Part shown: one piece after another, positions 11,733 through 25,100 of the stretch
How the letters are laid out: every line of letters starts with the position of its first letter
How positions within the stretch are numbered: the stretch's first letter is position 1
NCBI GenBank assembly: GCA_030429705.1
Contig: JAUIES010000001.1
Location: 186,001 to 250,000, forward strand
Direction of reading: 5' to 3'
Source: Phycisphaerae bacterium
GTDB taxonomy: Bacteria > Planctomycetota > Phycisphaerae > Phycisphaerales > UBA1924
Length of the DNA stretch: 64,000 nt
Notes under the pieces: model-generated
The model's input: the letters and a program-made list of their open reading frames with translations, nothing else
What the model was told of the DNA's origin: nothing
The model's database searches: none
Position numbers and translations under genes: made by a program

Positions 11733-12401
11733 ATGCTCTACAGAACATTTATCGTGATCGTGGCACTTATCTCGGTCTCTTTGCCGGGCGGCTGTTCGGT
11801 GTTGCCTCCAGCACTCGTTGGCGCTCGCAGTTCGGTCGAGTTGGTCTCGGTTGACGGCTCGACGGCGTTGCGACCAGCACTTCCGACAAGACTCTACCGA
11901 TTCGTCGACGAGAACACCGCTGATGTGATTCTCACCGATCTTTCCTTGGAGGAACTGACATCGGCTGACGCACCACCCGCAACCGGGCAGATCGTTCACC
12001 TCCAACTGTTCATGCGACCGATGCCGGGCCGTACACCGATTGCTCGAGAGGCCTGCTCGACCTCGATCCGTTGTGCGGTTCTCGCGCGCGGTCAGGTTGG
12101 AATGTACGGCGGGGGTGGGTTCTTGATCCCAGAATCGAAGCCGGGCGGGCAACTTTTTGGTGGCTCAATGTCGCGGGGATCTTTGCGATTGATCAAATCG
12201 ACCGGCCAATTCGTCGATCGACTCGGACCGACGCACGCCGATGTTTCATTCACCGCCAATCGCGACGATGATGCCGTGACGACCTGGCTCAGTCTGATGG
12301 ACCGCCTGGCACTTGTCGGTGTAAGCGTTGAACAACCCGCACCAGCCGCGCCTGAAGAGCCGGTAGAGAAAGACAACGCAGAACCGGCATCACCAGAGTG
12401 A
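11733..12401 (+). CDS. Putative lipoprotein
   Basis: A 222-residue protein with a hydrophobic N-terminus (MLYRTFIVIVALISVSLPGG) ending at a cysteine at position 21. The lipobox is imperfect (LPGGC, proline at -3), but the context is that of a lipoprotein. The mature part has no domain I recognise. It carries a Gly-rich turn (GMYGGGGFLIPESKPGGQLFGG) and an acidic, proline-rich C-terminus. The in-frame extension upstream overlaps the divergent gene's promoter region and is rejected. It is transcribed divergently from the secreted TPR protein and converges on the amidohydrolase with an 18-nt gap. Confidence 0.75.
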   Translation: MLYRTFIVIVALISVSLPGGCSVLPPALVGARSSVELVSVDGSTALRPALPTRLYRFVDENTADVILTDLSLEELTSADAPPATGQIVHLQLFMRPMPGRTPIAREACSTSIRCAVLARGQVGMYGGGGFLIPESKPGGQLFGGSMSRGSLRLIKSTGQFVDRLGPTHADVSFTANRDDDAVTTWLSLMDRLALVGVSVEQPAPAAPEEPVEKDNAEPASPE

Positions 12402-12418
12402 TTCAAAATCTGTGCAAG

Positions 12419-13573: not shown

Positions 13574-13579
13574 CTGGCG

Positions 13580-13585
13580 ATCGTA
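13580..13585 (-). promoter_or_regulatory. -10-like box TACGAT, 6 nt before the amidohydrolase start
   Basis: The spacing places the likely transcription start at the A of the ATG at 13573. Confidence 0.45.
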
Positions 13586-13639
13586 GCCACGGCGCATTGC
13601 CCGATTGTCCGTTCCAACAGCCTATTCAACAGAGCCACC

Positions 13640-14890
13640 ATGCCAAGTAATACACCACGCCCCACCGACGACATTCCTGATTCCAATGAGGCGTTCCTGT
13701 CATCGCAGCGACCAACGAAGGACACGCGTCGTACGGGGCCAGCCCGCATCGCCCTCGCGCATGACTGGACGGTCACCGTGCGTGGCGGCGAGGCGGTCCT
13801 CGAACGCATCGCCGGTTATGTCGACATGCACCACAAGGCTGCGGCTCTGTTCACGCTCTTTGATTCGGGGGTCGCCATCGGGCCCAAGACCGACAAGATC
13901 CCTCGGGTTGCGTCGAGCAAGAGCAAGTTGCCCATGGCCAAGGGGCTGCGCCGCTGGATGGCGCCTTTGTATCCCTCGATGGTTGAAGAACTGGGCGGTC
14001 GACTTGAGAACTTGCACAAGGCCGAGCCGATTGATCTGTTGATCTCGACCAGTTCGGCGATGATCAAGAACCTTCGGCCGCCCGGCGATGCGGCCCACAT
14101 CTGCTATTGCCACACGCCCGCGCGCTGGTTGTACGACCAGATGGACGCCTATGGCAAGGGTTCGGGCGGCGGCGGGCTGCGTGGGCTCGGACTCAAGATG
14201 TTCGGCGACAAATTACGCGCGTTCGATGCATCGGGCACGCGCACCGTTTCGGTCTTTTTGGCAAACTCGGAAGCGACGCGGGCGATGATCGAGCGGATCT
14301 ATAACCGTGACGCGGCGGTGGTGTGGCCTCCTGTGCGGACCGCGTTCTTTACGCCCGATGCCAATGTTGCCCGCGAGGATTTCTGGCTGCTCGTCAGTGC
14401 GCTCGAACCGTACAAGCGGGTGGATCTCGCGATCGAGGCGGCGTGCAAAGCGCGGCAGCGGCTGATCGTCGCGGGCGAGGGGACACAGAAGGGGTTTTTG
14501 GCGGCCCATGCCCGGGCGATGAGCAAGAAGCACGCCGGCGGGGTCAAGGGGCTTATCTCATTCGTCGGGCGCGTCGGTGATGAGCAACTGCGCGACCTGT
14601 ATCGCCGGGCGGGTGCGTTCATTTTCCCGCAGATCGAGGATTTTGGCATCACGGCTGTTGAGGCGCAGGCGTGCGGCTGCCCGGTGGTCGCTCGCAGCGA
14701 AGGGGGGGCTATCGATTCGGTGATCCCCGGCAAGACGGGGGCGTTCTTTGAAGACGCCGATGCCGACGCACTCGTTGCAGCGGTCAAGGCGCTGCCGTCG
14801 AACGCGGCGGCGTGCCGCACCAATGCCGAGCGTTTCAGCGAGAAACTGTTTGATCAGCGACTGGCGATGCATGTCGAGGCAGCGGTGTAG
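13640..14890 (+). CDS. GT4-family glycosyltransferase
   Basis: A 416-residue glycosyltransferase of the GT-B fold. The N-terminal acceptor half begins RIALAHDWTVTVRGGEAVLE, and ICYCHTPARWLYDQMDAY is typical of mannosyltransferase-like GT4 enzymes. The C-terminal half has LLVSALEPYKRVDLAIEA and the donor-binding E-x7-E motif in EDFGITAVEAQACGCPVV near residue 335. It probably adds a sugar to a polysaccharide or lipid carrier at the inner face of the membrane; substrate is unknown. The frame is open far upstream, but that region is antisense to the amidohydrolase, so the first ATG after it is used. No other polysaccharide gene is adjacent. Confidence 0.92.
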   Translation: MPSNTPRPTDDIPDSNEAFLSSQRPTKDTRRTGPARIALAHDWTVTVRGGEAVLERIAGYVDMHHKAAALFTLFDSGVAIGPKTDKIPRVASSKSKLPMAKGLRRWMAPLYPSMVEELGGRLENLHKAEPIDLLISTSSAMIKNLRPPGDAAHICYCHTPARWLYDQMDAYGKGSGGGGLRGLGLKMFGDKLRAFDASGTRTVSVFLANSEATRAMIERIYNRDAAVVWPPVRTAFFTPDANVAREDFWLLVSALEPYKRVDLAIEAACKARQRLIVAGEGTQKGFLAAHARAMSKKHAGGVKGLISFVGRVGDEQLRDLYRRAGAFIFPQIEDFGITAVEAQACGCPVVARSEGGAIDSVIPGKTGAFFEDADADALVAAVKALPSNAAACRTNAERFSEKLFDQRLAMHVEAAV

Positions 14891-14896
14891 GTGGGG

Positions 14897-14938
14897 AAGG
14901 CATTGGGGATTAGGCATTGGGCATTGGGAAATCGGGGG
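14897..14938 (+). repeat. Heptanucleotide tandem tract
   Basis: Six 7-nt units of the type aaggcat-tggggat-taggcat-tgggcat-tgggaaa directly follow the glycosyltransferase stop. Consensus is near tRGGcAt. Related tracts occur at 22536-22577 and, in the opposite orientation, at 23356-23390. Confidence 0.7.
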
Positions 14939-14989
14939 ATTGAGGCGTGACGACCGGCTACCCGTGCGCTTGCGCCGTGACAGGCAGCA

Positions 14990-15153
14990 TGCTCCCTCCC
15001 TTGCGCCTTCGCGGGGGATGTGGCTGCGTCCTCGAAGCCGGAGGGGGTCTTGGGCCGGGTGCGTTCGCCGTATGATGCAGTCGATGTCAAAGCAGGCGCA
15101 CCCCCACCGACCATCGCTGCGCTCGGCCACCTCCCCCGCGGCGCGGGGGAGGG
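14990..15153 (+). repeat. Compound palindromic element A, copy 1
   Basis: Left arm: an imperfect hairpin (ctccctcccttgcg / cgcgggggat) followed by gaagccggagggggtc. A short variable centre follows, then a right arm with gcaccccc, gctgcgctcggcc and a near-perfect hairpin (cctcccccgc / gcgggggagg). The arms are roughly inverted copies of each other. It lies between the glycosyltransferase and the 3' end of the first ribbon gene and contains no gene. Confidence 0.75.
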
Positions 15154-15179
15154 CGGAAATTCGCCGGGTGACGACAATA

Positions 15180-15857
15180 TCAGATGGCGGATGTTGGCCG
15201 CCCCCACCCACACTCCGGGCAGCCGTGTTCGAAGGCGCCCTTGAGGTCGTAGTTGCACTGCGGGCAGTGGCCGTTGCGGCGGCGACGGCGGCGGCGGAGC
15301 ACCGGCCAGCCAAAGAGTGGAGCCGACCAGAGCGCGGCGTAGAACGCAGAACCGGCGATCAGCCCGCGCCAGATCGGGCGCAGCGGGATCGCGCGGTAGG
15401 CGTGCGATTGGCGGCCAGTGATTCGGATGAGGTCGATCCCGCCGCTGGCGGCGTGAACCCCGATCTTGCTCGGTCCGGCCAGCGGGTACCAGTAACTGAG
15501 CATGGGCCAGCCGAAGCCTTCCTGACCGAGGTTCCGCGGGTTGGCGAGCAGGGCATCGACCGATGCGGTCGGCCAGTCTTCCCACGCGACCACAGGAGCA
15601 TCGGGGTCGAGCGGCGTGCGGGGGGGCCACATCGTCGTGATGCACCCGCGATATTCGCGGCCGAATGAGAACAAGCGCGATTGATGAAGGCCGGGGCCGG
15701 TCTCACGGATATCGCGCGACGCGGGACCGGCGGGCGTGCGGCGGGGCAGGAGATCTTCTCCCCACCCCGCGAGCAGAGCCGCGACCAGCCAGTTGGTCAC
15801 CGCCCCCAAGAGGAGGCAGAGCAGAAGCGTCAGGATCAAGCGTGGCCATGGCCGCAT
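15180..15857 (-). CDS. Membrane protein with C-terminal zinc ribbon
   Basis: A 225-residue protein with an N-terminal membrane segment (residues 6-30, LILTLLLCLLLGAVTNWLVA), an exported middle domain, a second hydrophobic segment (LIAGSAFYAALWSAPLFGWPVL), an Arg-rich stop (LRRRRRRRN) and a cytoplasmic zinc ribbon CPQCNYDL...GCPECGWG. It shares this order and several motifs with the 291-residue protein at 17334-18209, so the two are paralogues. The ligand or partner is unknown; the ribbon may bind zinc for protein or nucleic-acid contact. ATG 15857 lies 6 nt after a TAGACT box. Confidence 0.85.
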   Translation of the reverse strand: MRPWPRLILTLLLCLLLGAVTNWLVAALLAGWGEDLLPRRTPAGPASRDIRETGPGLHQSRLFSFGREYRGCITTMWPPRTPLDPDAPVVAWEDWPTASVDALLANPRNLGQEGFGWPMLSYWYPLAGPSKIGVHAASGGIDLIRITGRQSHAYRAIPLRPIWRGLIAGSAFYAALWSAPLFGWPVLRRRRRRRNGHCPQCNYDLKGAFEHGCPECGWGRPTSAI

Positions 15858-15863
15858 GGAGAG

Positions 15864-15869
15864 AGTCTA
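15864..15869 (-). promoter_or_regulatory. -10-like box TAGACT, 6 nt before start 15857
   Basis: The box and the following pyrimidine-rich CTCTCC are nearly identical to those before 18209 and 21591. Confidence 0.45.
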
Positions 15870-15956
15870 CCGGTGCCGTGGGCCAAGGGGTGCAGGCTGT
15901 GACTGGCCCGTTGCGCGACCTGTCTTGGTCGGTCGGCTGCATGCAAGGCACCTTGT

Positions 15957-16192
15957 GCTCCCTCCCCCGTGTCTTCGCGGGGGAGGTGGTCGAGTCTTCG
16001 AGACCGGAGGGGGTCCTCTCAATCCTCCCCCGCGTCTTCGTGGGGGAGGTGGCTGAGACTTCGAAGCCGGAGGGGGTCTTCGGGCGGGTGCATCCGGCAT
16101 CTAAATCGCCGATCATCAAGCCGGACGCACCCCCGCAGGCCTTCGCTGCGCTCGGCCACCTCCCCCGCGGCGCGGGGGAGGGAGATGGCGGG
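15957..16192 (+). repeat. Compound palindromic element A, copy 2 (left arm duplicated)
   Basis: The left arm (hairpin plus gagaccggagggggtc) occurs twice in tandem, at about 15959-16017 and 16024-16083. A variable centre and one right arm (cttcgctgcgctcggccacc plus hairpin) ending at 16192 follow. It fills the 356-nt gap between two divergent ribbon genes and ends 7 nt before the TACGAT box of the next gene. It is open in several frames, so conceptual peptides from it are artefacts. Confidence 0.8.
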
Positions 16193-16198
16193 CCGCCC

Positions 16199-16204
16199 TA
16201 CGAT
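16199..16204 (+). promoter_or_regulatory. -10-like box TACGAT, 9 nt before start 16214
   Basis: Any -35 element would fall inside the right arm of repeat element A copy 2. Confidence 0.4.
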
Positions 16205-16213
16205 GCAAGAGCC

Positions 16214-16837
16214 ATGACCACGCCGTCACCAAAACCCGAGACCCCCCCAGCCGGGCCGACGGTCTGCGAATGTGGCTATGACCTGACGGGGTTGCCGGTG
16301 GATGACGACGCGAAGTGCCCGGAGTGCGGTGTTGTCATATCAACGATCAAGCCACCCATCGAAATTGACGGGCGGACGGTTCTGGCAACCACCATTGCGT
16401 TTATGCCATCGATCGTTGCCGGAACGAAGGTTTGCACTTGCGGCTATGACCTGACGGGGTTGCCAGCGGATGGCGACACAAAATGTCCCGAGTGTGGGAT
16501 TGTTCTTGCAACAATCAAGCCGCGCGTTCGAGTCGGCATTCGGGAATTCGTATTGTTCGCCGTCGCGATTCTTCCATCGATCATGGTTGTTTGCGATCCG
16601 TTGATCGAGATGATGCACACCAGAGGGTTTCTGACATCACCCGCGATCGACGCTCTGACTTGGGTCATCATCGGATGGTTCTTCTTCGTGTCCATGCCGG
16701 CAAGCGTTCTGCTTCTTCAACCATCCCTCGCTGGCAAGCCTACTCCAGAACGATTGATGCCTCAGGTGATTGCGGTCGGTTTGTGTTTCATCGTGAACAT
16801 CGAAATCAGCGTCCTGGCGATGTATCTGATGATGTAG
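16214..16837 (+). CDS. Membrane protein with two tandem zinc ribbons
   Basis: A 207-residue protein. The first ribbon (CECGYDLTGLP...KCPECG, residues about 17-38) is followed by VVISTIKP, and a near-copy (CTCGYDLTGLP...KCPECG, then IVLATIKP) begins about 58 residues later. Two or three membrane segments follow (EFVLFAVAILPSIMVV, LTWVIIGWFFFVSMPASVLL, VIAVGLCFIVNIEISVLAMY). The duplicated N-terminus suggests recombination between neighbouring paralogues that left one gene with two ribbon modules. Its C-terminal half resembles the ribbonless protein at 18902-19252. ATG 16214 is used; the upstream open frame runs through the repeat. Function unknown. Confidence 0.82.
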   Translation: MTTPSPKPETPPAGPTVCECGYDLTGLPVDDDAKCPECGVVISTIKPPIEIDGRTVLATTIAFMPSIVAGTKVCTCGYDLTGLPADGDTKCPECGIVLATIKPRVRVGIREFVLFAVAILPSIMVVCDPLIEMMHTRGFLTSPAIDALTWVIIGWFFFVSMPASVLLLQPSLAGKPTPERLMPQVIAVGLCFIVNIEISVLAMYLMM

Positions 16838-16870
16838 GATTGATCGTGCGTGGCACAAGCCGACTCGCCA

Positions 16871-16876
16871 TACGAT
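16871..16876 (+). promoter_or_regulatory. -10-like box TACGAT, 9 nt before start 16886
   Basis: The stretch between box and ATG ends in CCAGCC, much like the copy before 16214. Confidence 0.4.
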
Positions 16877-16885
16877 GTACCAGCC

Positions 16886-17344
16886 ATGACCACCCAGCCG
16901 TCCAAACCTGAGACCCCCCCAGTCGGACCGATGGTGTGCGCGTGCGGCTATGACCTGACGGGGTTGCCGGTGGATGCCGGAGCGAAGTGTCCGGAGTGCG
17001 GCGCAGAAGTCGGGTCTGGCACGCATGGCGGTGCGTGGCACGGGCGGACCTGGGTTCGATTGCTGATCGCAGCAGCGCCGGCCATTGTCTTTATTGTCTA
17101 TTTCTTTGGTATTGGATCAGTGGCCAGCAGGCCGTTGATGGAATCCACGGTGAACCCTGTGATGATCGTCAGTGCTGCGCTTCTGCTGTTCGTGTCACTG
17201 CCGATGAGTGTCGTGATCGGCCTCGCGTTCTGGCCAACCGAGGGTGCGGCCAAGGGGATTGCTGTGGCACTCGGAGCGGTTGCCCTGTGCTTGATTGTTC
17301 ATTTCTTGGTTTTCGTCGGCATGGGTTTGTGGTTCACGCGTTAA
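16886..17344 (+). CDS. Membrane protein with N-terminal zinc ribbon
   Basis: A 152-residue protein: a Pro-rich lead (SKPETPPVGP), ribbon CACGYDLTGLP...KCPECG at residues 18-40, then three hydrophobic segments (LLIAAAPAIVFIVYFFGI, VMIVSAALLLFVSLPMSVVI, GIAVALGAVALCLIVHFLVF). The ribbon should face the cytoplasm. It lies 48 nt after the two-ribbon gene in the same direction but has its own -10-like box and start, so it may be an independent unit. Its last 11 nt overlap the convergent gene at 17334-18209. Confidence 0.83.
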   Translation: MTTQPSKPETPPVGPMVCACGYDLTGLPVDAGAKCPECGAEVGSGTHGGAWHGRTWVRLLIAAAPAIVFIVYFFGIGSVASRPLMESTVNPVMIVSAALLLFVSLPMSVVIGLAFWPTEGAAKGIAVALGAVALCLIVHFLVFVGMGLWFTR

Positions 17345-18209
17345 GGCGTGACGGGCGCGAGGATTGTTCTTGTCGCGCCTCACGCCCCCACCCGCATTCC
17401 GGGCAGCCGTGTTCGAGGTCGCTCTTGAGGTCGTAGTTGCAGTGCGGGCAGTGGCCCTTGCGTCGGCGGCGGCGTTGCTTGAGTAGCGGCAGGCCGATGA
17501 GGGGGAGAGCCCAGATCGCGCCGTAGAACACGGTATTCGCGGCAAGACCAGACCAAACGGGATGCAATGGGAGGAGCCATGTCGCGTCGACAGTATTGGC
17601 GTTGGTTTGCCCATGCAGCGTGATCGACCAGTGATGCTCTTCTGGAGGCTCGGTTGTACCGGGAGGGACACTCCGTTCGGGCCTGACACTCGCCCACTCC
17701 ATGCAAACGAACGGCCAACCATGGGCCAGTGTTCTGATGATCACTTGTTGACCTGGCCCGACAAACTCCCCCAGCCATAACGAATGAAGGTCCGCTGCCC
17801 GATCTGCAAGCAATGGCGGATAGATGTACGCTTCCGATTGATAATCCATCACGAGCCGATCGTCCCTATTCGCGCCATATCGCTCTACATACTCCCGCTG
17901 CGCAGTCTCGCGCATTCGGTACGCGCCGCGCCGCGATGCATTGCTCATTTGCGAGGCAAAACTGCCATCGTCGGGATGGTCCATTCGGGCGATTCGCCAT
18001 GTCTCCCATCGAACCCCTCTTTCCTGTCCTCGAGAGAGGCTGATAAAGTGAGGTTCGACGACTGTCATAGCTTCTGTCCAGTTTCCTCGCGGCTTGAACC
18101 AGTCCATCCATTGCGAGAACGAAAGCCCCCATGCGACCATCCACGAGGTAACCGCTCCGAGCAGGACACAGAGCGTGAGCCGGATAATGAGTGATCGCCG
18201 TGACCGCAT
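17334..18209 (-). CDS. Membrane protein with C-terminal zinc ribbon (larger paralogue)
   Basis: A 291-residue paralogue of the 15180-15857 product: N-terminal membrane segment (IIRLTLCVLLGAVTSWMVAW), an exported domain of about 180 residues with many charged and aromatic residues, a second membrane segment (GLAANTVFYGAIWALPLIGL), Arg/Lys-rich LKQRRRRRKG, then ribbon CPHCNYDL...GCPECGWG near residues 250-275. The segments PLRPIWRGL/PLHPVWSGL and the membrane anchors align well between the two. ATG 18209 lies 6 nt after a TAGACT box. Function unknown. Confidence 0.85.
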   Translation of the reverse strand: MRSRRSLIIRLTLCVLLGAVTSWMVAWGLSFSQWMDWFKPRGNWTEAMTVVEPHFISLSRGQERGVRWETWRIARMDHPDDGSFASQMSNASRRGAYRMRETAQREYVERYGANRDDRLVMDYQSEAYIYPPLLADRAADLHSLWLGEFVGPGQQVIIRTLAHGWPFVCMEWASVRPERSVPPGTTEPPEEHHWSITLHGQTNANTVDATWLLPLHPVWSGLAANTVFYGAIWALPLIGLPLLKQRRRRRKGHCPHCNYDLKSDLEHGCPECGWGREARQEQSSRPSRLNA

Positions 18210-18215
18210 GGGATG

Positions 18216-18221
18216 AGTCTA
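18216..18221 (-). promoter_or_regulatory. -10-like box TAGACT, 6 nt before start 18209
   Basis: Extended context TGATAGACT is shared with the boxes before 21591 and 23079. Confidence 0.45.
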
Positions 18222-18265
18222 TCAGAGGGCCGCCAGTCCACCAATGACCGATACAGGCTGTCTCA

Positions 18266-18308
18266 TGAGGGGGTGCGGGGGAACCCTCCCCCGCGGGAGC
18301 GGTGCCGA
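18266..18308 (+). repeat. Hairpin repeat B, copy 1
   Basis: Unit tgagggggtgcgggggaacc followed by ctcccccgcgggagcggtgc. The core gcggggg/cccccgc can pair. It lies between the 3' end of the 18370-18774 gene and the 5' end of the 17334-18209 gene. Confidence 0.75.
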
Positions 18309-18369
18309 AACACCTCGAACCGTTGATCAGCATTTCAACATGGCTTCAATGTGACACGCACAGAGTTCT

Positions 18370-18774
18370 TTACGACCCTGCCGCTCGATTGCTCACTCGA
18401 GTTGTGCGCGACTTTGTTCGAATCTCGGCTCGCATCATGGCAAACCAGATCACTGGTGCAATGAGAACGAAGATACCCGAGTTCAGCGCCGGCTTCATGC
18501 GCGTGGCACTGATGTCGTCGCCAAGGTACCCGATGATGGATGCAATCAAGATGAGGGCGCAGGCGGCGAAGAGCGCGAGCATCGCAACGGTGTATGTCAC
18601 AACCCCAACCCACCAGCCGAGTCGTGGATTCCGGTACAACACGATCCGAGGTAAACCGAGGCAGCCCAAAACAGCCAGCCCGAGATATGCCAAGCCGCCA
18701 AGCGTGAATAACAAGTATCCGGGCCATCCAAAACTGTTGATCCACTCGATCATGCGGCGCATAGCCTCCTGCAT
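18370..18774 (-). CDS. Small integral membrane protein
   Basis: A 134-residue protein with three or four hydrophobic segments (GYLLFTLGGLAYLGLAVLGC, LGWWVGVVTYTVAMLALFAA, ALILIASIIGYLG, GIFVLIAPVIWFAMM) and a basic C-terminus. It has no ribbon or recognised family. It sits within the ribbon-protein array and shares the promoter-start arrangement: TAGAAT 6 nt before ATG 18774. Two downstream ATGs (18762, 18750) follow an AGGAGG and could be alternative starts. Function unknown. Confidence 0.7.
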   Translation of the reverse strand: MQEAMRRMIEWINSFGWPGYLLFTLGGLAYLGLAVLGCLGLPRIVLYRNPRLGWWVGVVTYTVAMLALFAACALILIASIIGYLGDDISATRMKPALNSGIFVLIAPVIWFAMMRAEIRTKSRTTRVSNRAAGS

Positions 18775-18780
18775 GTCACG

Positions 18781-18786
18781 ATTCTA
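18781..18786 (-). promoter_or_regulatory. -10-like box TAGAAT, 6 nt before start 18774
   Basis: Five of six positions match the TATAAT consensus. Confidence 0.45.
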
Positions 18787-18830
18787 TCGATCCCGACCAT
18801 GCCACGGATCGTCTATATCGGTCCGTGCCC

Positions 18831-18874
18831 GATGAGGGGGTGCGGGGGAACCCTCCCCCGCGTGAGCGGCGCCG
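18831..18874 (+). repeat. Hairpin repeat B, copy 2
   Basis: Nearly identical to copy 1 over 40 bases (tgagggggtgcgggggaacc, then ctcccccgcgtgagcggc). It lies in the divergent promoter region between the 18370-18774 and 18902-19252 genes. Confidence 0.78.
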
Positions 18875-18886
18875 ATTGCCTCGCCT

Positions 18887-18892
18887 TACACT
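18887..18892 (+). promoter_or_regulatory. -10-like box TACACT, 9 nt before start 18902
   Basis: The spacer ends in AACC and carries no ribosome-binding sequence. Confidence 0.42.
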
Positions 18893-18901
18893 GCTGCAAC
18901 C

Positions 18902-19252
18902 ATGTCCATGCCGCCACCTGAACTCAAGAAACCCGCTTCGGCTCGGAAGATTGCACGATTGGGCATACTGGTGCTGATCTGTTTGATGCCGTCGCTGTTC
19001 TCGGCGTTTGAAACCGTGAGATATTCAGTTACGCGGACCCACTGGATTCCGGAATCGGCGAACGACACCGTCTTGTGGTGTGTGTTGGGGTGGTTGTTTC
19101 TGCTGTCGATCCCAGCCAGTCTGGTTTTGATGAGTTCGGCCTCAAAAGGAAAATCGCTGGCTGCGCGTTCGATGAACAGTCTGGTCGCCGTCGTCGCCTG
19201 TATCTATCTGAACGCGCAGATTGCGGTCGGTGCTCACTTTCTTTTCGCGTGA
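18902..19252 (+). CDS. Small membrane protein, ribbonless relative of the array
   Basis: A 116-residue protein with three hydrophobic segments (IARLGILVLICLMPSLFSAF, VLWCVLGWLFLLSIPASLVL, SLVAVVACIYLNAQIAVGAH). The segment VLGWLFLLSIPASLVLMSS matches IIGWFFFVSMPASVLLLQPS of the two-ribbon protein at 16214-16837, and their C-termini align as well, so it is a paralogue that lacks the N-terminal ribbon. It keeps a short Pro-rich lead (MPPPELKKPA), where the ribbon would follow in relatives. Function unknown. Confidence 0.78.
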   Translation: MSMPPPELKKPASARKIARLGILVLICLMPSLFSAFETVRYSVTRTHWIPESANDTVLWCVLGWLFLLSIPASLVLMSSASKGKSLAARSMNSLVAVVACIYLNAQIAVGAHFLFA

Positions 19253-19272
19253 GCTGATCGTCCACGCAGCCC

Positions 19273-19314
19273 TTGAGGGGGTGCGGGGGAAGCCTCCCCG
19301 GCGTGAGCGACGAT
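19273..19314 (+). repeat. Hairpin repeat B, copy 3
   Basis: Diverged copy (ttgagggggtgcgggggaag, then cctccccggcgtgagcga) directly 3' of the 18902-19252 gene, same orientation as copies 1 and 2. Confidence 0.72.
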
Positions 19315-19423
19315 CGCATATCCGGACCTGTCGGCACGCGCACCCTCATGGCCATGCGGTGTCACGACCGTGGCAGCTTGTGTGTTGATTTGGACATCAC
19401 TTTGTGTATACACGCCCATTGAC

Positions 19424-19651
19424 AGGCCAGCGGCCTGATCGTCCATAGCCGGGGGTGAAGGGCACAGCCCGCCACCCCCGGTGGGTGGTGTGTTTATCGC
19501 GACGCAGGCTGAAGGCCTGCTCGTGGGGGGCGCGTTGACGCTATTGCACGAGCAGACTTGCAGCCTGCTTCGTTCAATCTCGACCTGTCCGGGGGTGGCG
19601 TTCGCTTCGCTCGCTTCACGCCCGGCTATGAACGGCCAGCCCGTCGGGCTG
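19424..19651. repeat. Nested imperfect inverted repeat, about 230 bp
   Basis: Outer arms: 19424-19460 (ggccagcggcc...atagccgggggtgaag) and 19614-19651 (cttcacgcccggctat...ggccagcccg) are imperfect inverted copies. Inner arms: caggctgaaggcctgctcgt at about 19505-19524 pairs with acgagcagacttgcagcctg at 19548-19567. Direct ccaccccc/gggggtgg pairs lie between them. The whole can fold into a long cruciform. It is probably a non-coding interspersed repeat. Confidence 0.65.
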
Positions 19652-19740
19652 AATCGGCCTGACGACCCGACCTCGCGTGTACAGTCATCGCTGTATCGAT
19701 TGCCGTCTGCCGATTCCCGTCTGCCGATCTCCTCGCGCGT

Positions 19741-19797
19741 GGGTGCGGGGGCCGCCACAGGCGGTTTTGTCAAACCATCCCCCGCATGAGCGGTGCG
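19741..19797 (+). repeat. Hairpin repeat B, copy 4, interrupted
   Basis: The left part gggtgcggggg and right part tcccccgcatgagcggtgcg match repeat B, but about 26 nt (ccgccacaggcggttttgtc and following) separate them. The inserted piece itself starts with a ccgcc/ggcgg hairpin. Confidence 0.5.
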
Positions 19798-19902
19798 ACA
19801 GGGCGCAGACCTCCTGATCGACACAAGACGCGCAGCGAATGGCAGCCCAAACACCGCGTCAACTGGAGCAGATGCCGTCGTATGTGCTCTGCGCGTCGCC
19901 GC

Positions 19903-20091
19903 GCGCAGAGCAGATGACGCGACGCGCAGAGCACATGGCGTGCAGCGCAGAGCAGATGACGCGACGCGCAGAGCACATGGCGTGCAGCGCAGAGCACATG
20001 ACGCGTCGCGCAGAGCAAAAGGCGTCGCGCGCGGAGCAGATGACGCGTCGCGCAGAGCACATGCGACGACGCGCAGAGCAGATTTCGCCAA
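19903..20091. repeat. 21-bp minisatellite, nine units
   Basis: Nine contiguous 21-nt units share the start gcgcagagca; the following atgacgcgac and catggcgtgca variants alternate in the first four units, giving a 42-bp higher-order repeat. Immediately before it, 19883-19902 carries an inverted partial unit (tgtgctctgcgcg). Because 21 is divisible by 3, both strands stay open through it. It ends about 250 nt before the 20342 gene. Confidence 0.9.
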
Positions 20092-20341
20092 ACCCATCCC
20101 GCGAACGAGGGGTTATTTTGGGCGAAGCCTTACCACCAGCCCGCACGCCGCTAGCGAGAACCCCGCGCGTTCGTGACAGATCGCCCCGCGTTCGACGCGC
20201 AATCACACAACTTGGCCAATCAGCCCAAAAACAGCCGCCCCCAGCCTCAAGCCGCTCGCCCCCGTCGTCGATCAACCGGCCAGCAAACCAAACCCGGCCG
20301 CGGGCGTCACGCGTCACGCCGCCAACACAAGGAGACTCGCT

Positions 20342-21025
20342 ATGGGCATCGTACCGAACACGCAGCAGGGCGCGATTGACTTCTTCGCCAACCGCCTGCC
20401 CACCTGGGGCGCCAACGCCATCAAGATCGGATTGTCAGCAGAGCAGGTCACGCAGATCGCGACGGATGTCAGCGACGCATCCGACAAGCTCGCCGCAGCC
20501 CAGGCGGCCCGCATCGCGGCCAAGAACGCGACGCTGGAACTGGCGCTCGCCATGGACACCATGCGGTCGTTCGGCGGCGACCTGGTCAAGACCATCCGCA
20601 CCTACGCCGAGACCACGGGTGACAACGAAGTCTACACACTCAGCGATGTCCCCCCCATCGCCCCCCCGACACCCGTGGGCGCTCCTGCAACCCCCACCGA
20701 CCTGACCGCGGTGATCAACAACTTCGGCGAGATCAAGACCGAGTGGAAGGGAAGCCGAGCCGCCGGCACGCAGTTCATCCTGCAGCGCCAGATGAAGGCC
20801 GTCGACGGCACCCTCGGCGAGTGGACTTATGCGGGTAGCAGCACGACCAACGACTACACGGACAACGCCGTGCCCACGGGTTTCGCCGCGGTCAGTTATC
20901 GCGTCTACGCCCAGAGGCCGGGCGGCACCAGCGATGCCTCGGGCACAACCACGCTCAACTTCGGCATCGGCGGCAGCCAGGCCGTTTCCGCCAGCGGCAA
21001 CACCGACCTGACCATCGCGGCCTGA
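20342..21025 (+). CDS. Fibronectin-III-like domain protein, hypothetical
   Basis: A 227-residue protein without a signal peptide. Residues 1-100 are mostly helical and Ala-rich (QIATDVSDASDKLAAAQAAR). A Pro-rich hinge (PPIAPPTPVGAPATPTDLTA) leads to a beta-rich domain with the look of fibronectin type III (GTQFILQRQMK, YRVYAQRPGGTSDASGTTTL). ATG 20342 is preceded by AAGGAG at good spacing, unlike most genes nearby. A terminator follows the stop. The architecture recalls hypothetical proteins common in planctomycetes; the role is unknown, perhaps structural or adhesive. Confidence 0.85.
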   Translation: MGIVPNTQQGAIDFFANRLPTWGANAIKIGLSAEQVTQIATDVSDASDKLAAAQAARIAAKNATLELALAMDTMRSFGGDLVKTIRTYAETTGDNEVYTLSDVPPIAPPTPVGAPATPTDLTAVINNFGEIKTEWKGSRAAGTQFILQRQMKAVDGTLGEWTYAGSSTTNDYTDNAVPTGFAAVSYRVYAQRPGGTSDASGTTTLNFGIGGSQAVSASGNTDLTIAA

Positions 21026-21057
21026 GCCGCGACGACCAACATTCCGGGTGTGTATGG

Positions 21058-21091
21058 TGCAGGCCTCTTGCCAGGGGCCTGTGCCTTTTTT
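21058..21091 (+). terminator. Terminator after the fibronectin-like gene
   Basis: Stem gcaggcc / ggcctgt with an internal loop, followed by a run of six T at 21086-21091. It lies 33 nt past the stop at 21025. Confidence 0.75.
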
Positions 21092-21138
21092 GTGTCTGAA
21101 TGAAATTCGCGTCCGTGCTCATTTTCTCGTTCAACTCT

Positions 21139-21591
21139 TCAAAGAGACAACAAGACCACTCCAAAAATTGCATTGGCCATCACAAGCAAACCAAAGAGAC
21201 CGACAACGCAAAGAAAATTGGCGATGAACCCTCTCCCGCGGTATCCACTCATGACATGAAGAATGAGAACAGGAAAGGACACGAAGATAAAACCGATACC
21301 TCCCAACCCAACAAGAGCAATCGAGACGAGAGGCCCAATGACAGGAACCAATCCTGAGGTCCCAACGGCAAAACCAAAAACTGCGAGCACAAATGGCACG
21401 ATCATCACCATCACGAGAAACCAACCCCGGACGCGCCATCGATCAAAGGTCGTCAGTCCGGCAACCACCGCCCCGCACTCCGGACACTTGGCCGCCGCAT
21501 CATCCGGCAACCCGCTCAGGTCGTAGCCGCACACGCACACCGATGGCGGCGAAGCGGGCGTGTCGGATGCGTTGGTCTGGTCGGAAGGCAC
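21139..21591 (-). CDS. Membrane protein with N-terminal zinc ribbon
   Basis: A 150-residue member of the ribbon family: ribbon CVCGYDLSGLP...KCPECG at residues 19-41, then three or four membrane segments (LVMVMIVPFVLAVFGFAVGT, ALVGLGGIGFIFVSFPVLIL, VVGLFGLLVMANAIFGVVLL). The start is a GTG at 21591, 6 nt after a TAGACT box, with no Shine-Dalgarno. It is the first of three ribbon genes plus a fragment on the minus strand, each with its own -10-like box. Function unknown. Confidence 0.83.
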   Translation of the reverse strand: MPSDQTNASDTPASPPSVCVCGYDLSGLPDDAAAKCPECGAVVAGLTTFDRWRVRGWFLVMVMIVPFVLAVFGFAVGTSGLVPVIGPLVSIALVGLGGIGFIFVSFPVLILHVMSGYRGRGFIANFLCVVGLFGLLVMANAIFGVVLLSL

Positions 21592-21597
21592 GGAGAC

Positions 21598-21603
21598 AGT
21601 CTA
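21598..21603 (-). promoter_or_regulatory. -10-like box TAGACT, 6 nt before GTG 21591
   Basis: The same TGATAGACT context precedes genes at 18209 and 23079, here with a GTG start. Confidence 0.45.
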
Positions 21604-21672
21604 TCACGGGGCAGCCCAAGCGCCATGAGAAACACACGCCGGGCGCGGAAGGGCGTTCGGCAACGCGCCGGC

Positions 21673-22134
21673 TCACCACGACAACACGAGCGTTGCAAGG
21701 AACACCACGAACCCGTTGAACAAAAACGAAACCGGAACGCACACGAAGAAGAAAACGAGCCACATGACCGCCATGTTCGTGATGCGCAGCGCCGTCACGA
21801 TGAGGAGCCAGCACGCGAGCATCGACACCACGCCGCTGACAAGCAACATGAACGCGAGCACCACGACCAATAGATCGGGCAACGCACCGGTTGCAACGGC
21901 GGTGGATTCCAATGCCGTCCAGAGCCAGCCCACGACGCTCGGCGACAGAAACATCGCGAGATGCCGCCGCCAACGATCGAACCTCGGCACCAGTGGCTTA
22001 AGGTCGGCCAGCACCGCCCCGCACTCCGGGCACTTCGCGTCCGCATCCCTCGGCAACCCCGTCAGGTCATAGCCGCAAGAGCAGGTCGTCGGCTCGGCCG
22101 GGGGGGTGTGAGGCATGGACGGTGGATGAGACAT
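21673..22134 (-). CDS. Membrane protein with N-terminal zinc ribbon
   Basis: A 153-residue member: Pro-rich lead, ribbon CSCGYDLTGLP...KCPECG (residues about 18-40), AVLADLKP linker as in the two-ribbon paralogue, then membrane segments (FLSPSVVGWLWTALESTAVA, LLVVVLAFMLLVSGVVSMLA, MAVMWLVFFFVCVPVSFLFN, GFVVFLATLVL). ATG 22134 is used because the open frame further upstream runs into repeat element A. Function unknown. Confidence 0.83.
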   Translation of the reverse strand: MSHPPSMPHTPPAEPTTCSCGYDLTGLPRDADAKCPECGAVLADLKPLVPRFDRWRRHLAMFLSPSVVGWLWTALESTAVATGALPDLLVVVLAFMLLVSGVVSMLACWLLIVTALRITNMAVMWLVFFFVCVPVSFLFNGFVVFLATLVLSW

Positions 22135-22143
22135 CGCTCGATC

Positions 22144-22149
22144 ATTGTA
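22144..22149 (-). promoter_or_regulatory. -10-like box TACAAT, 9 nt before start 22134
   Basis: Any -35 element would lie at the edge of repeat element A copy 3. Confidence 0.42.
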
Positions 22150-22162
22150 GGGGAGCCAGCCT

Positions 22163-22331
22163 TCTCCCTCCCCCGCGACGCGGGGGAGGCGATCGAGCGC
22201 AGCGAAGGGCGGAGGGGGTGCGTCCGGTCCAAGATTCAATCGGTCGAAGGTTCAATTCAAAGTCGCCAAAACCCCCTCCGGTCTCGAAGACTCGACCACC
22301 TCCCCCTCGAAGACGCGGGGGAGGGAGAGAT
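22163..22331 (-). repeat. Compound palindromic element A, copy 3 (inverted)
   Basis: The element is in the opposite orientation to copies 1 and 2: right-arm hairpin (cctcccccgcgacgcggggg) first, then gatcgagcgcagcgaagggc and ggagggggtgcg, a variable centre, then accccctccggtctcgaaga and the left-arm hairpin ending at about 22331. It overlaps the 3' end of the truncated ribbon gene and supplies its last codons. Confidence 0.78.
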
Positions 22332-22470
22332 GAACGCCATACAACGCAAGCATGATCGACTCAACCGGCCTTGCCGCAGCAGCCACCGGCAACCCCGTCA
22401 GGTCATAGCCGCAGGTGCAGGTCGCGACTGCAGCAGCACGAGCATCCGGTTTAGGTGGCGTAGAAGGCAT
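22252..22470 (-). pseudogene. Truncated zinc-ribbon gene fused to repeat element A
   Basis: The first about 28 residues match the family (Pro-rich lead, CTCGYDLTGLPVAAAA), but the second CPECG half of the ribbon and all membrane segments are missing. After a few codons the frame enters repeat element A and ends with LPRVFEGEVVESSRPEGVL, a peptide that the same repeat also encodes at 15957-16192. The gene therefore looks cut by insertion of, or recombination with, the repeat. It still has a TACACT box 9 nt before ATG 22470, so it may be transcribed. A functional 72-residue product is unlikely because the zinc site is incomplete. Confidence 0.75.
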
Positions 22471-22479
22471 CGCAGCACA

Positions 22480-22485
22480 AGTGTA
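22480..22485 (-). promoter_or_regulatory. -10-like box TACACT, 9 nt before start 22470
   Basis: The signal is kept although the gene downstream is truncated, consistent with a recent event. Confidence 0.4.
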
Positions 22486-22535
22486 CGGCATCTCGCTTGC
22501 AGGCACTTCTACGAGCCAATACACGGACCAAGGAC

Positions 22536-22577
22536 CGGCCATCAGGGATCAAGGATTGGGGTTTCGGGATCGGGAAA
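22536..22577 (+). repeat. Heptanucleotide tandem tract
   Basis: Units cggccat-cagggat-caaggat-tggggtt-tcgggat-cgggaaa, six in all, between the truncated ribbon gene and the 3' end of the next ribbon gene. Confidence 0.6.
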
Positions 22578-22617
22578 CTGCTCCGAACGAACCCTGCGCC
22601 GGTCCGCCAACACGCTG

Positions 22618-23079
22618 TCAATACCAGCCGACGACCCACACAAACAGCCCAACCATCAGCAAGTTTGTGATGAGAGACAGTGGCACCGCGAAGATCATCA
22701 AGAAAAATCGTTTCCACGCCGGCATCGAGGGAAACTCCCGATACATATACACACAACAAGCTGGTGTGGAGACGATCACAATGAGCCCGAGGATGATCCC
22801 CCATCCAATCAACTCAAAGTCTTTTGGAAACCACGCCGAGGGAAGCAACTCAAGCACACTGAACAGGAGCATGATGAACACCGTTGGCGAGACAAACGCC
22901 ACGCTGATGATCCATCCACGCATGTACCACGGCACGGTTGGCACGAGTTCCGCAATTACCGCCCCGCACTCCGGACACTTGGCCGCCGCATCCGCCGGCA
23001 ACCCGCTCAGGTCGTAGCCGCATACGCACACGGTTGGCGCGGGCGGCGGCACTTCTGGTTGGCTCGGCGGCGGAAGCAT
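22618..23079 (-). CDS. Membrane protein with N-terminal zinc ribbon
   Basis: A 153-residue member: ribbon CVCGYDLSGLP...KCPECG (residues about 18-40), AVIAELVP linker, then hydrophobic segments (GWIISVAFVSPTVFIMLLFS, LIGWGIILGLIVIVSTPACC, FFLMIFAVPLSLITNLLMVG, LFVWVVGWY). It is closest in its ribbon to the 21139-21591 paralogue (both CVCGYDLSGLP). ATG 23079 lies 9 nt after a TAGACT box. Function unknown. Confidence 0.83.
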   Translation of the reverse strand: MLPPPSQPEVPPPAPTVCVCGYDLSGLPADAAAKCPECGAVIAELVPTVPWYMRGWIISVAFVSPTVFIMLLFSVLELLPSAWFPKDFELIGWGIILGLIVIVSTPACCVYMYREFPSMPAWKRFFLMIFAVPLSLITNLLMVGLFVWVVGWY

Positions 23080-23088
23080 GGCTGGGGG

Positions 23089-23094
23089 AGTCTA
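23089..23094 (-). promoter_or_regulatory. -10-like box TAGACT, 9 nt before start 23079
   Basis: Same TGATAGACT context as at 18216 and 21598, but three bases further from the start. Confidence 0.42.
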
Positions 23095-23112
23095 TCACAG
23101 AGCAGCCGAGCC

Positions 23113-23310
23113 ACCGGCCCGAAGCCGGTCCCACTGAAGAGGGAGGCACGATGCGCCGCTTGGAAAGCGGCCCCACGAGGGAGCGATGTCGATCAAGCCG
23201 GTTGGAAACCGGCTCCCCAAAGGGAAGTGGTGTGTCGCGCCGCTTGGAAAGCGGCCCACGGGAGAACGGGACCAATGCCACTTTGCGAAAGAACGCCCCG
23301 GAGGGGCGAG
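23113..23310. repeat. 42-bp tandem array of small hairpins
   Basis: Exact 42-nt period at 23155, 23197 and 23239. Each unit starts with a hairpin (gccgcttggaaagcggc or gccggttggaaaccggc) and continues with ccc and a variable 20-nt part. Compensating changes (CTT/AAG stem flank against GTT/AAC) keep the hairpin in the middle unit. Degenerate units flank on both sides. It occupies most of the 318-nt gap before metG. Confidence 0.82.
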
Positions 23311-23355
23311 GTACCCGAGCCAAGTCACGACGCATCGGCTCGGAGAGCCGATCTA

Positions 23356-23390
23356 CCCAGTGCCTAGTGCCTGATGCCTAGTGCCTATTC
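23356..23390 (-). repeat. Heptanucleotide tandem tract (inverted)
   Basis: Plus-strand units cccagtg-cctagtg-cctgatg-cctagtg-cctattc, which read TAGGCAC/TAGGCAT on the minus strand. The last unit merges with the TATTCT box before metG. Confidence 0.68.
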
Positions 23391-23391
23391 T
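23386..23391 (+). promoter_or_regulatory. -10-like box TATTCT, 6 nt before metG
   Basis: The box is formed by the last unit of the heptanucleotide tract, so the repeat itself may have supplied the promoter. Confidence 0.42.
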
Positions 23392-23397
23392 CCTTCC

Positions 23398-25098
23398 ATG
23401 CCGACGCCGTACTACATCACCACGCCGATTTACTATGTCAATGACAGGCCGCATATCGGCCACTGCTACACGACGCTCTTGGCCGATGTCGCCGCGCGGG
23501 CGGCACGGCTGATCGGGCGCGATGTCTTCTTCCTGACCGGGACGGACGAGCACGCGGAGAAGGTTGTCGCCAAGGCGGCCGAAAACGGGGTCACGCCGCA
23601 GGCCTGGGCCGACCGCAACGCGGCGGCCTTCAAGGACGCGTTTGCGTTCATGAACTTCAGCAACGACGACTTCATCCGCACCACCGAAGCCCGGCACACC
23701 TCCAAAGCCTCGGCCTACATTCAGCGGCTCGTTGACTCGGGCGATATCGAACTGGGCGACTACGAAGGCTGGTTCGACGCATCGCAAGAGGAATATGTCA
23801 CCGAGACCGTCGCTAAAGAGAACGACTACAACAGCCCCGTCACCGGCAAGCCGCTCGAAAAACGGGTGGAACAGAACTACTTCTTCCGCCTCGACAAGTA
23901 CGAATCGTGGCTCATCGAACAGATCGAGACCGACGCCATCGTTGTCGCCCCCGAAGCTCGCAAGAACGAGGTGCTCGGCCGCCTCAAAGGCGGGCTCAAC
24001 AAAGTGCCCGTCTCCCGCCGCATCAAGGACGGCGACGCCGACTGGGGCGTGGTCATGCCCAATGACCCCGAGCACCGCGTGTATGTCTGGATCGAGGCGC
24101 TCTGCAACTACATGACCGTGGTCGACACGAACGAACGCCGCAAGTACTGGCCGGCAACCGTGCACCTGATGGCCAAGGACATCACCTGGTTCCACGCCAT
24201 CGTCTGGCCCGCGATGCTCAAGGCCCTCGGGCACGCCCCCCCGGCCATGATCTACGCCCATGCCTACTTCATCGCCGAAGGCCGCAAGATGAGTAAATCG
24301 CTCGGCAACTTCGTCGAGATCGACCTGCTGCGGGCCTACGCCGATCGCTTCGGGCTCGACGCGCTCCGCTGGTTTCTCACCACGCAAGGCCCGCTCGGCG
24401 CGAACGATGCCGACTTCGCCTACGCCCGCTTCGTCGAGGTCTATAACGCTGACCTCGCCAACAGCGTCGGCAACTCGATGAGCCGCGTGTCGAACATGAT
24501 CAACAAGTACTTTGACGGCAAGATCACCCATGTGTGCAACGGCGAATACGGATTCCCCAACGGGACCGCGCTCCAGATCGCACTCAAAGCTCTCGATAAC
24601 GCAGGCAAACCCGCGGCTGAAGCCCGCACCTACCACTTCGCCGATTTCACCAAAGCCGCGGTCGAGGCAGCCATCGAAGCCCACGCCCGAATGGACCTTG
24701 GTGAAATGCTGTCGCAAGGGCTCTCCATCGTGCGGCATGTCGATGACTTCATCTCCTTCTGCGCCCCGTTCACGCTCGCCAAGCAACTCGACGACCTGGA
24801 TGGAGCCGAAGACGCATTGGCCGCAATCCTCTATTCATGCGCCGAAGCCCTCCGCATCGCCAGCCTGCTGCTTGCCCCCACCATGCCCGAGACCATGGCC
24901 GACCTGTGGCGACGATGGAACTGCGCGCATCTCACCGATGCCAACGACGCGAACGCAGCCTTCGTCGCGCCGATCGCTGAACTGACCAGGTGGGCCGGGC
25001 CGCACGGACTCAAGCACGGGCAGGTCATCACTAAAGGCGACGCACTCTTCATGCGGGCCGACGGCAAAGACCCGGCACCGGAAGTCAAGGAGGCTTAA
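23398..25098 (+). CDS. metG: Methionyl-tRNA synthetase
   Basis: Class I synthetase charging tRNA-Met, 566 residues. The HIGH-type signature is PHIGHCYTT (residues about 18-26) and the KMSKS loop is GRKMSKSLGNFVEID (near residue 300). YEGWFDASQEEYV marks the connective-peptide region, where the zinc-knuckle cysteines of the E. coli-type enzyme are absent. The C-terminal anticodon-binding helical domain includes PTMPETMADLWR. No C-terminal tRNA-binding dimerisation domain is present. ATG 23398 follows a -10-like box by 6 nt and has no Shine-Dalgarno. The epimerase gene starts 2 nt after its stop. Confidence 0.97.
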   Translation: MPTPYYITTPIYYVNDRPHIGHCYTTLLADVAARAARLIGRDVFFLTGTDEHAEKVVAKAAENGVTPQAWADRNAAAFKDAFAFMNFSNDDFIRTTEARHTSKASAYIQRLVDSGDIELGDYEGWFDASQEEYVTETVAKENDYNSPVTGKPLEKRVEQNYFFRLDKYESWLIEQIETDAIVVAPEARKNEVLGRLKGGLNKVPVSRRIKDGDADWGVVMPNDPEHRVYVWIEALCNYMTVVDTNERRKYWPATVHLMAKDITWFHAIVWPAMLKALGHAPPAMIYAHAYFIAEGRKMSKSLGNFVEIDLLRAYADRFGLDALRWFLTTQGPLGANDADFAYARFVEVYNADLANSVGNSMSRVSNMINKYFDGKITHVCNGEYGFPNGTALQIALKALDNAGKPAAEARTYHFADFTKAAVEAAIEAHARMDLGEMLSQGLSIVRHVDDFISFCAPFTLAKQLDDLDGAEDALAAILYSCAEALRIASLLLAPTMPETMADLWRRWNCAHLTDANDANAAFVAPIAELTRWAGPHGLKHGQVITKGDALFMRADGKDPAPEVKEA

Positions 25099-25100
25099 CA

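Follow-up and report, generated by a model that had tools for sequence, protein, structure and literature searches.

Organisation of the array

Positions 15180–23079 of the window, the 64,000-nucleotide stretch analysed here, hold a cluster of membrane protein genes that share a short cysteine-rich ribbon. The window corresponds to positions 186001–250000 of contig C4 in the genome of a Phycisphaerae bacterium (3.49 Mb in eight contigs). The array comprises five genes whose products carry the ribbon near the N-terminus (N-ribbon genes), one truncated ribbon gene, two genes with the ribbon at the C-terminus (C-ribbon genes) and two genes for ribbonless membrane proteins, distributed over both strands. 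Every gene listed in a preliminary description of this locus was confirmed, and to that list we add the double ribbon of P0003, the lost second knuckle of P0007, the kinship of P0010 with P0003 and a further gene, P0011. A DNA pattern for the ribbon matches seven times in the window, always at 15180–23079, and in 0 of 100 shuffled sequences, and G+C content is lowest at the second codon position, as in coding DNA, in 10/10 array genes (P0001–P0006 and P0008–P0011). The array represents the local amplification of an uncatalogued module of which genomes in the order to which this bacterium belongs often contain many copies.

From left to right, the genes run as C-ribbon (minus strand), two N-ribbon (plus), C-ribbon (minus), the ribbonless P0009 (minus) and P0010 (plus), an FN3-like gene (plus), two N-ribbon (minus), the truncated gene (minus), one N-ribbon (minus) and metG. 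The first C-ribbon gene, P0001 (15180–15857, minus strand), encodes an N-terminal transmembrane (TM) segment, an extracytoplasmic part, a weak second TM segment, an arginine-rich stretch and a ribbon of the form CPQCNYDLKG..CPECG. It is related to the second C-ribbon gene, P0002 (17334–18209, minus strand), with a phmmer E-value of 6.6e-33 and a score of 114.9 bits. P0003 (16214–16837, plus strand) is an N-ribbon gene with two complete ribbons, copies 168 nucleotides apart produced by an internal duplication (repeat family D3), followed by a membrane tail. P0004 (16886–17344, plus strand), P0005 (21139–21591, minus strand) and P0008 (22618–23079, minus strand) each join an N-ribbon to three TM segments, and P0006 (21673–22134, minus strand) joins one to a TM part. 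P0007 (22252–22470, minus strand) is the truncated gene; it keeps the first knuckle only and continues into an interspersed GC-rich repeat. P0009 (18370–18774, minus strand) is a ribbonless protein with three hydrophobic segments and the promoter layout of its neighbours, and it has no relative in the set of open reading frames (ORFs) compared by phmmer. P0010 (18902–19252, plus strand) lacks a ribbon and is paralogous to the membrane tail of P0003 (phmmer E-value 1.4e-11; tail z 21; 26/94 residues). The FN3-like gene inside the array, P0011 (20342–21025, plus strand), has a Shine–Dalgarno sequence and lies downstream of a 21-bp tandem repeat array at 19902–20083.

The ribbon and its predicted orientation in the membrane

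The module has the consensus CxxCGYDLxG...CPECG, of which the N-ribbon form is CxCGYDL(T/S)GLP-x6-CPECG. In the five N-ribbon proteins, some 17 residues precede the ribbon and the membrane part follows it. Two cysteine pairs (CxC or CxxC, and CPxC), spaced for one zinc ion, are present in P0001–P0006 and P0008 and missing as a set from P0007. All four cysteines are invariant in 11/11 rows of the N-ribbon alignment (A3), and so are the G, Y, L, G, L and P around them; in the broader profile A4 the cysteines are invariant by construction, its members having been chosen by a motif that requires them. With this pattern, the ribbon probably binds zinc.

The best three-helix placement of 14 proteins gives summed lysine and arginine counts of 34 before the first helix, 9 in loop 1–2, 35 in loop 2–3 and 5 at the C-terminal end. 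Moreover, a relative (G025) encodes a ribokinase, a ribbon and a TM part fused in one open frame (L061, 1060–2817), and since ribokinase is a cytosolic enzyme this arrangement assigns the ribbon to the cytosolic face. On the strength of the charge counts and this fusion, the N-terminal ribbon and loop 2–3 should face the cytosol. An AlphaFold model of P0008 has helices at residues 51–77, 87–115 and 121–152; a fold search with it returned 20 matches at E ≤ 10, the best at 2.0 and none at E ≤ 0.001. The C-ribbon proteins are laid out differently, with a TM segment near the N-terminus, an extracytoplasmic part, a second hydrophobic stretch, the run RRRRR and then the ribbon. Should the second stretch span the membrane, their ribbon would also be cytosolic; if it does not, the ribbon would lie outside.

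Ribbon and membrane tail compared

The earlier observation that one ribbon is attached to very different membrane parts holds: over the 78 pairs formed by 13 genes, with P0003 represented by its second ribbon, amino acid identity is 72% in the ribbon and 16% in the tail. Identical residues are specified by the same codon in 64% of cases in the ribbon and 37% in the tail, where codon usage predicts 43%. At the anchor positions, 14 N-ribbons have a codon sameness of 0.66 with one another and of 0.55 with 20 further ribbons of the genome. Codon sameness was considered as proof of exchange between ribbon genes; the control with other genome ribbons weakened it to one clear pair.

That pair is P0005 and P0008. 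Their ribbons are identical at 66/69 nucleotides, against 47–59/69 in the 27 remaining pairs among eight genes, and their tails are 28% identical in pairwise global alignment, within the 15–36% of the other pairs (14/98 in the multiple alignment). Both tails find their best match in gene f of a paralogous cluster on contig C7, with shuffle z values of 9.7 for P0005 and 12.2 for P0008, and match each other at 3.1. A nearly identical ribbon beside tails of ordinary similarity is simply explained by exchange of the ribbon segment, and we infer that such an exchange took place within the array in this sole clear case. Repeat homologies in the array start at the upstream repeat or the promoter and break off where the ribbon ends. 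One, I1, extends from the upstream repeat to the ribbon end in P0003 and P0006 (209 nucleotides at 79%); another, I2, covers 137 nucleotides at 75%.

Promoters

The −10-like box of the preliminary description is real. In 10/10 array genes a TAnnnT box ends exactly 6 or 9 nucleotides before the start codon, at 6 in P0001, P0002, P0005 and P0009 and at 9 in P0003, P0004, P0006, P0007, P0008 and P0010; in P0001, for example, it reads TAGACT, 6 nucleotides before the ATG, and in P0003 TACGAT, 9 nucleotides before it. With P0011 and the genes of two paralogous clusters included, the box is found in 18/22 genes, where mononucleotide shuffles of the upstream 60 nucleotides predict 0.34, and these 22 genes are not independent because they are related. 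The box is missing from the FN3-like gene of each array and from two members of the cluster at 1662 kb of contig C4. As background, 310 long ORFs from 464 kb of the genome, their starts taken as the first ATG and hence partly wrong, have the box at 6 nucleotides in 3.9% and at 9 nucleotides in 0.6% of cases, and internal methionine codons in 0.1%. Since the box sits so close to the start codon, the natural reading is that the array mRNAs would be leaderless or nearly so.

A related array on contig C7

A profile of the N-ribbon revealed further clusters in the same genome, at 342–349 kb of contig C7 and at 1662–1664 kb of contig C4. The C7 cluster (L031) consists of three N-ribbon genes (plus strand), a C-ribbon gene (minus), an FN3-like gene (plus) and three N-ribbon genes (minus), with an unrelated-looking 360-residue ORF on the minus strand between the first two N-ribbon genes. 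Common to both arrays is the order N-ribbon (plus), C-ribbon (minus), FN3-like (plus) and three N-ribbon (minus). The C-ribbon gene on C7 (L031, 6014–6844) is the counterpart of P0002, and the phmmer match between them (7.6e-63, 210.6 bits) exceeds that between P0002 and P0001 (114.9 bits); the FN3-like gene on C7 is, at 55%, closer to P0011 than any other of the 11 relatives that P0011 has in the genome. Because the gene order is the same, the C-ribbon genes match at 210.6 bits and the nearest relative of P0011 lies on C7, the two arrays are best read as related by block duplication, followed by birth and death of genes. The gene adjoining the C7 cluster we take, from its sequence, to be that of DNA polymerase I. 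Also beside this array, a long repetitive protein with repeated N/T-rich motifs is encoded at L031, 40–2679.

Distribution of the ribbon

Profile A4, built from 27 ribbon rows and applied at a threshold of E ≤ 0.001, gives 50 matches in the genome; they include the array ribbons, with P0007 at 8.3e-4, and the ribbons of P0008 and P0002, which as rows of the profile match by construction. Of these matches, 28 lie within 3 kb of another, where random placement gives a mean of 4.0 and a maximum of 16 in 2000 simulations, and outside the three N-ribbon clusters this still applies to 10/32. The strong N-ribbon form, scoring above 100 bits, was found in this genome only among the 41 searched, a set without a genome of the same genus; the next best score is 47.4.

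Within the order, 192 of 201 genomes contain the ribbon, and the nine without it belong to two families (seven to f5, two to f6); at most 39 candidates were scored per genome in this survey, so its copy counts are lower bounds. A phylum-wide draw found the ribbon in 7/119 genomes, five of which are members of the order while the other two have one or two weak matches each. When up to 150 candidates were scored, at least 101 copies were counted in genome G010, 48 in G023 and 20 in G014. Six genomes reached through individual loci contain at least 86, at least 71, 36, 26, 25 and 21 ribbons, and at least three of these six share match positions with genomes counted under other handles. Across the order, copy number ranges from 0 to at least 101. 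Relatives of the N-ribbon proteins occur at 21 named loci, and the records of 17 of these are titled as Phycisphaerales, Phycisphaerae or Phycisphaeraceae bacterium. Two loci titled otherwise, L040 (Vicinamibacteraceae) and L055 (Alphaproteobacteria), come from genomes with at least 71 and at least 86 ribbons, respectively; the match positions in the L040 genome are those of the order member G035, so that its title is probably wrong, and that of L055 may be likewise.

Clusters recur in the relatives. Loci L119 and L123 have four N-ribbon genes each, L124 has six ribbon genes, L118 has ten C-ribbon genes along 17 kb and L126 has seven, and in L121 no cluster genes with the strict motif were found. 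These stretches were picked because the match lists showed clusters there, and they illustrate the phenomenon without measuring it. The attached parts vary: the ribbon may stand at the N-terminus, in the middle or at the C-terminus, with between 0 and about 13 TM segments judged from hydropathy. A Pfam domain scores above cut-off in 3/30 scanned ribbon proteins of the genome and its relatives. One is the ribokinase fusion described above. In the second, a CstA-type carbon-starvation transporter of the same genome (L016, 1027–3009; contig C7, 512–515 kb), the ribbon stands between TM segments; the third, a DUF4177 protein, carries its ribbon at the C-terminus and has no predicted TM segment.

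P0011 and its relatives

Residues 112–186 of P0011 match the FN3-like structure 3mpc weakly (E 0.027); the N-terminal half is unmatched, and the protein has no Pfam match. Its family is present in 13/41 genomes, with 12 matches in the present genome, 44 in G023 and 24 in G010. Eleven copies of this type have Shine–Dalgarno-like sequences, identified by eye, unlike the ribbon genes of the array. A 21-bp repeat upstream of every gene of this type was considered and rejected, as Tandem Repeats Finder reported one at 3/11 copies; the arrays upstream of two further copies (L129 and L133) have a 21-bp unit of different sequence. Of the 12 genes of this type in the genome, 3 lie within 1 kb of a ribbon, where 0.3 are expected (P 0.0035), and two of these belong to the duplicated array; in G023 the count is 5/44 (expected 1.2, P 0.007; 44 of 48 ribbons used). 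In G010, where 89 of the 101 ribbons entered the test, the figures are 2/24 at a distance of up to 1 kb (P 0.28), 5 at up to 2 kb (P 0.03) and 8 at up to 4 kb (P 0.009). The link between the two gene types is too weak to build on.

Repeats and genomic neighbourhood

The palindromic GC-rich interspersed repeat has 13 matches in the genome; five of these, including a partial one, fall inside the array or no more than 200 bp away. One is at 15958–16014 (plus strand), with a 96% complementary copy at 22271–22327 in the tail of P0007; others are at 14995–15067 and 16024–16096. Among relatives, the repeat has seven matches in G002, one in G006 and none in the other 18 searched. A search for RNA elements gave no Rfam match at 12000–26000.

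Ten flanking proteins were chosen for a Pfam scan. Seven fall into families (ribosomal L10, ribosomal L1, glycosyltransferase, MetG, epimerase, D12 DNA methyltransferase and dehydrogenase acyltransferase), and none of the ten is an integrase or transposase. Among viral contigs, 56 pattern matches were obtained and none was confirmed as a relative; on plasmids, the sole query, P0008, found no relative; and PADLOC matched 0/10 array proteins at E ≤ 0.1. No ribbon gene stands upstream of metG in any of the seven relatives with at least 10 kb visible there, one of which (G032) is ribbonless genome-wide. The upstream stretch of an eighth (L184) extends over about 1.4 kb only. In 24 short metG loci with about 1.5 kb or less on each side, the upstream part is likewise free of ribbons. 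Whereas the array of the window lies upstream of metG, G014 has a ribbon ORF just downstream of it on the same strand (L166, 391–1020), and G009 has a CPAC variant (L162).

Relationship to known families

None of the ten proteins scanned (P0001–P0006 and P0008–P0011) scores above a curated cut-off in Pfam or NCBIfam; P0007 lay outside the Pfam, NCBIfam, PHROG and PADLOC scans, and P0006 outside that of PHROG. For the HVO_2753 family model NF041909, with its cut-off of 80 bits, P0003 scores 12.2, P0005 12.0, P0006 13.3 and P0008 13.4, the other six being unlisted. For DZR (PF12773, cut-off 27.3), the best window protein is P0003 with 15.0, and the best of ten ribbon proteins from relatives reaches 22.2; for Zn_ribbon_3 (PF13248, cut-off 27), window proteins reach 14.7 at most. 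DZR and Zn_ribbon_3 are four-cysteine knuckles often found beside membrane helices. The PHROG matches are to families of unknown function, the best being P0003 at 8.3e-4; those of the window proteins fall in and around the ribbon, and the FN3-like protein from C7 has four weaker ones.

Over the whole ribbon, the best match among solved structures is HVO_2753 (6ydh; positions 3–31, E 1.2e-4). Weaker, partial matches are to 9e71 (positions 20–27, E 0.011) and ribosomal S27ae (positions 3–12, E 0.097), and the two lowest E-values of the search belong to the zinc-finger proteins 2i13 and 1mey, which match at CPECG and its flanks only. The array ribbons are like HVO_2753 and DUF1610 in having two cysteine-pair knuckles at short spacing; HVO_2753, however, is a free small protein, whereas the array ribbons sit on membrane proteins. 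A likeness in layout is offered by bacterial proteins such as TcaA, in which a zinc ribbon is combined with a TM segment and an extracytoplasmic part so that a cytosolic ribbon is carried on a membrane protein. A published account of HVO_2753 describes four C(P)XCG motifs and one bound zinc, and states that several C(P)XCG proteins bind no zinc (PMC11241148).

A literature search on the combination of zinc ribbon, TM segment and extracytoplasmic part found nothing relevant, and the literature searched held no description of a CGYDL ribbon family or of its arrays. The preliminary description had termed the locus a form of which no described system was known. In the libraries and papers searched that stands, but the array is not unique, as ribbon clusters recur across the order. 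It had also named two findings that would count against a coherent locus: scattered singletons in close relatives, and a different known family for each gene. Scattered singletons do occur in part, but so do clusters; no ribbon gene was seen upstream of metG in the relatives, and none of the array proteins scanned scores above the cut-off of a known family.

Discussion

We favour, at a probability of about one half, the reading that the ribbon is a common docking module, lying in the cytosol and carried on variable membrane parts, which has spread by duplication and ribbon exchange. The four-cysteine knuckle would face the cytosol and dock a partner, and the membrane part would set the place or context in which it does so. 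Each gene would have its own promoter set against the start codon, and its mRNA would have little or no leader. Local duplication would have enlarged the array, which would also have been duplicated as a block, either onto contig C7 or from there; the ribbons may have been kept alike partly by segment exchange while the tails diverged, with losses yielding the truncated and ribbonless copies. The earlier characterisation as a rapidly diversifying locus agrees with the duplicated array, the truncated, double and ribbonless copies and the one clear ribbon exchange. The proposal that came with it, that the ribbon serves a shared partner, is the best functional guess available for a ribbon that is predicted to be cytosolic in the N-ribbon proteins, is better conserved than the tails and occurs on unrelated proteins; that there is one such partner in the cytosol is a guess drawn from these features. 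Expansion as such is unsurprising, since wide duplication and divergence of protein families in Planctomycetales and Gemmataceae is reported (PMC8567305).

Several observations weigh against this reading. P0006 fits the three-helix placement badly. The P0008 model is of medium confidence, with a predicted local distance difference test score (pLDDT) of 74.5, a predicted template modelling score (pTM) of 0.48 and values of 58–71 over the ribbon stretch, and the model of the C-ribbon protein P0002 (44.1) is too poor for a fold search. The second hydrophobic stretch of the C-ribbon proteins is weak, being detected in P0001 and P0002 at a hydropathy of 1.2 and not at 1.6, and in the C7 copy only at 0.9. 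As regards exchange, the codon sameness of 0.66 among N-ribbons is only moderately above the 0.54 found among the 20 further ribbons compared, and at 0.69 within clusters it is only slightly above the 0.62 between clusters, at equal protein identity (0.74). N-ribbons therefore have more in common than codon bias alone would give, but to a moderate degree, and much of the contrast between ribbon and tail is plain selection on the protein.

The strongest competitor, which we regard as possible but somewhat unlikely, is a neutral build-up of paralogues, in which the ribbon would be a stable folding or insertion element, readily duplicated and tolerated, and the copies would drift in an array without joint function. 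Truncated, double and ribbonless copies standing side by side, tails of 16% identity, metG loci without an upstream ribbon gene in the relatives examined and copy numbers from 0 to at least 101 in the order would all be expected of such drift. Nevertheless, the ribbon is strongly conserved where the tails are not, the promoter box is kept at 6 or 9 nucleotides in all ten array genes and the codon positions are coding-like; that these three features persist beside changing tails speaks against pure drift. It is improbable that the ribbon is a zinc or redox sensor through which metal loss or cysteine oxidation alters the attached membrane part, each gene sensing alone. Four conserved cysteines beside membrane helices, and the ribbon inside the CstA-type transporter, would suit that role, but the many copies on unrelated proteins, the DUF4177 protein without predicted TM segments among them, suit a docking tag better, and the residues around the cysteines are as invariant as the cysteines themselves in the N-ribbon alignment.

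Two further proposals we consider very unlikely. A selfish or mobile locus (phage, plasmid or satellite) or a defence cluster would account for the rapid diversification, the five of 13 GC-rich repeat matches in or near the array and the multicopy FN3-like gene P0011. The suggestion of selfishness, made in the preliminary description, is disfavoured by the flanks, in which the ten proteins scanned include no mobile gene, and by the searches described above, in which no viral relative was confirmed, P0008 found no plasmid relative and no defence model matched. The other proposal, that the ribbon, as kin of small archaeal and ribosomal zinc ribbons, anchors ribosomes or RNA at the membrane, draws on the match to 6ydh and the weaker ones to 9e71 and S27ae. 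Zinc ribbons, however, resemble each other through cysteine spacing alone, and the zinc fingers 2i13 and 1mey, aligned at CPECG and its flanks only, gave better E-values than any of these.

Whatever its function, the module occurs at 50 places in this genome and, across the order, in 192 of the 201 genomes searched, yet no Pfam or NCBIfam model above cut-off covers the ribbon in the proteins scanned. The array offers a natural experiment, in which near-identical ribbons are joined to very different tails and the ribbonless and half-ribbon copies serve as built-in controls. A bolder and rather doubtful extension of the docking reading is that the ribbon acts as an address tag throughout the order, so that in many genomes dozens to about 100 proteins, most of them in the membrane and bearing the ribbon in a loop or at one of their ends, would answer to one cytosolic receptor, and that arrays such as this are the birthplace of new tagged proteins, where the ribbon segment would be joined to new membrane tails. 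In this group, which is known for its unusual membranes, the partner of the ribbon could explain many unannotated membrane proteins in each genome. If the extension were true, there would be an unrecognised membrane-organising system in these planctomycetes.

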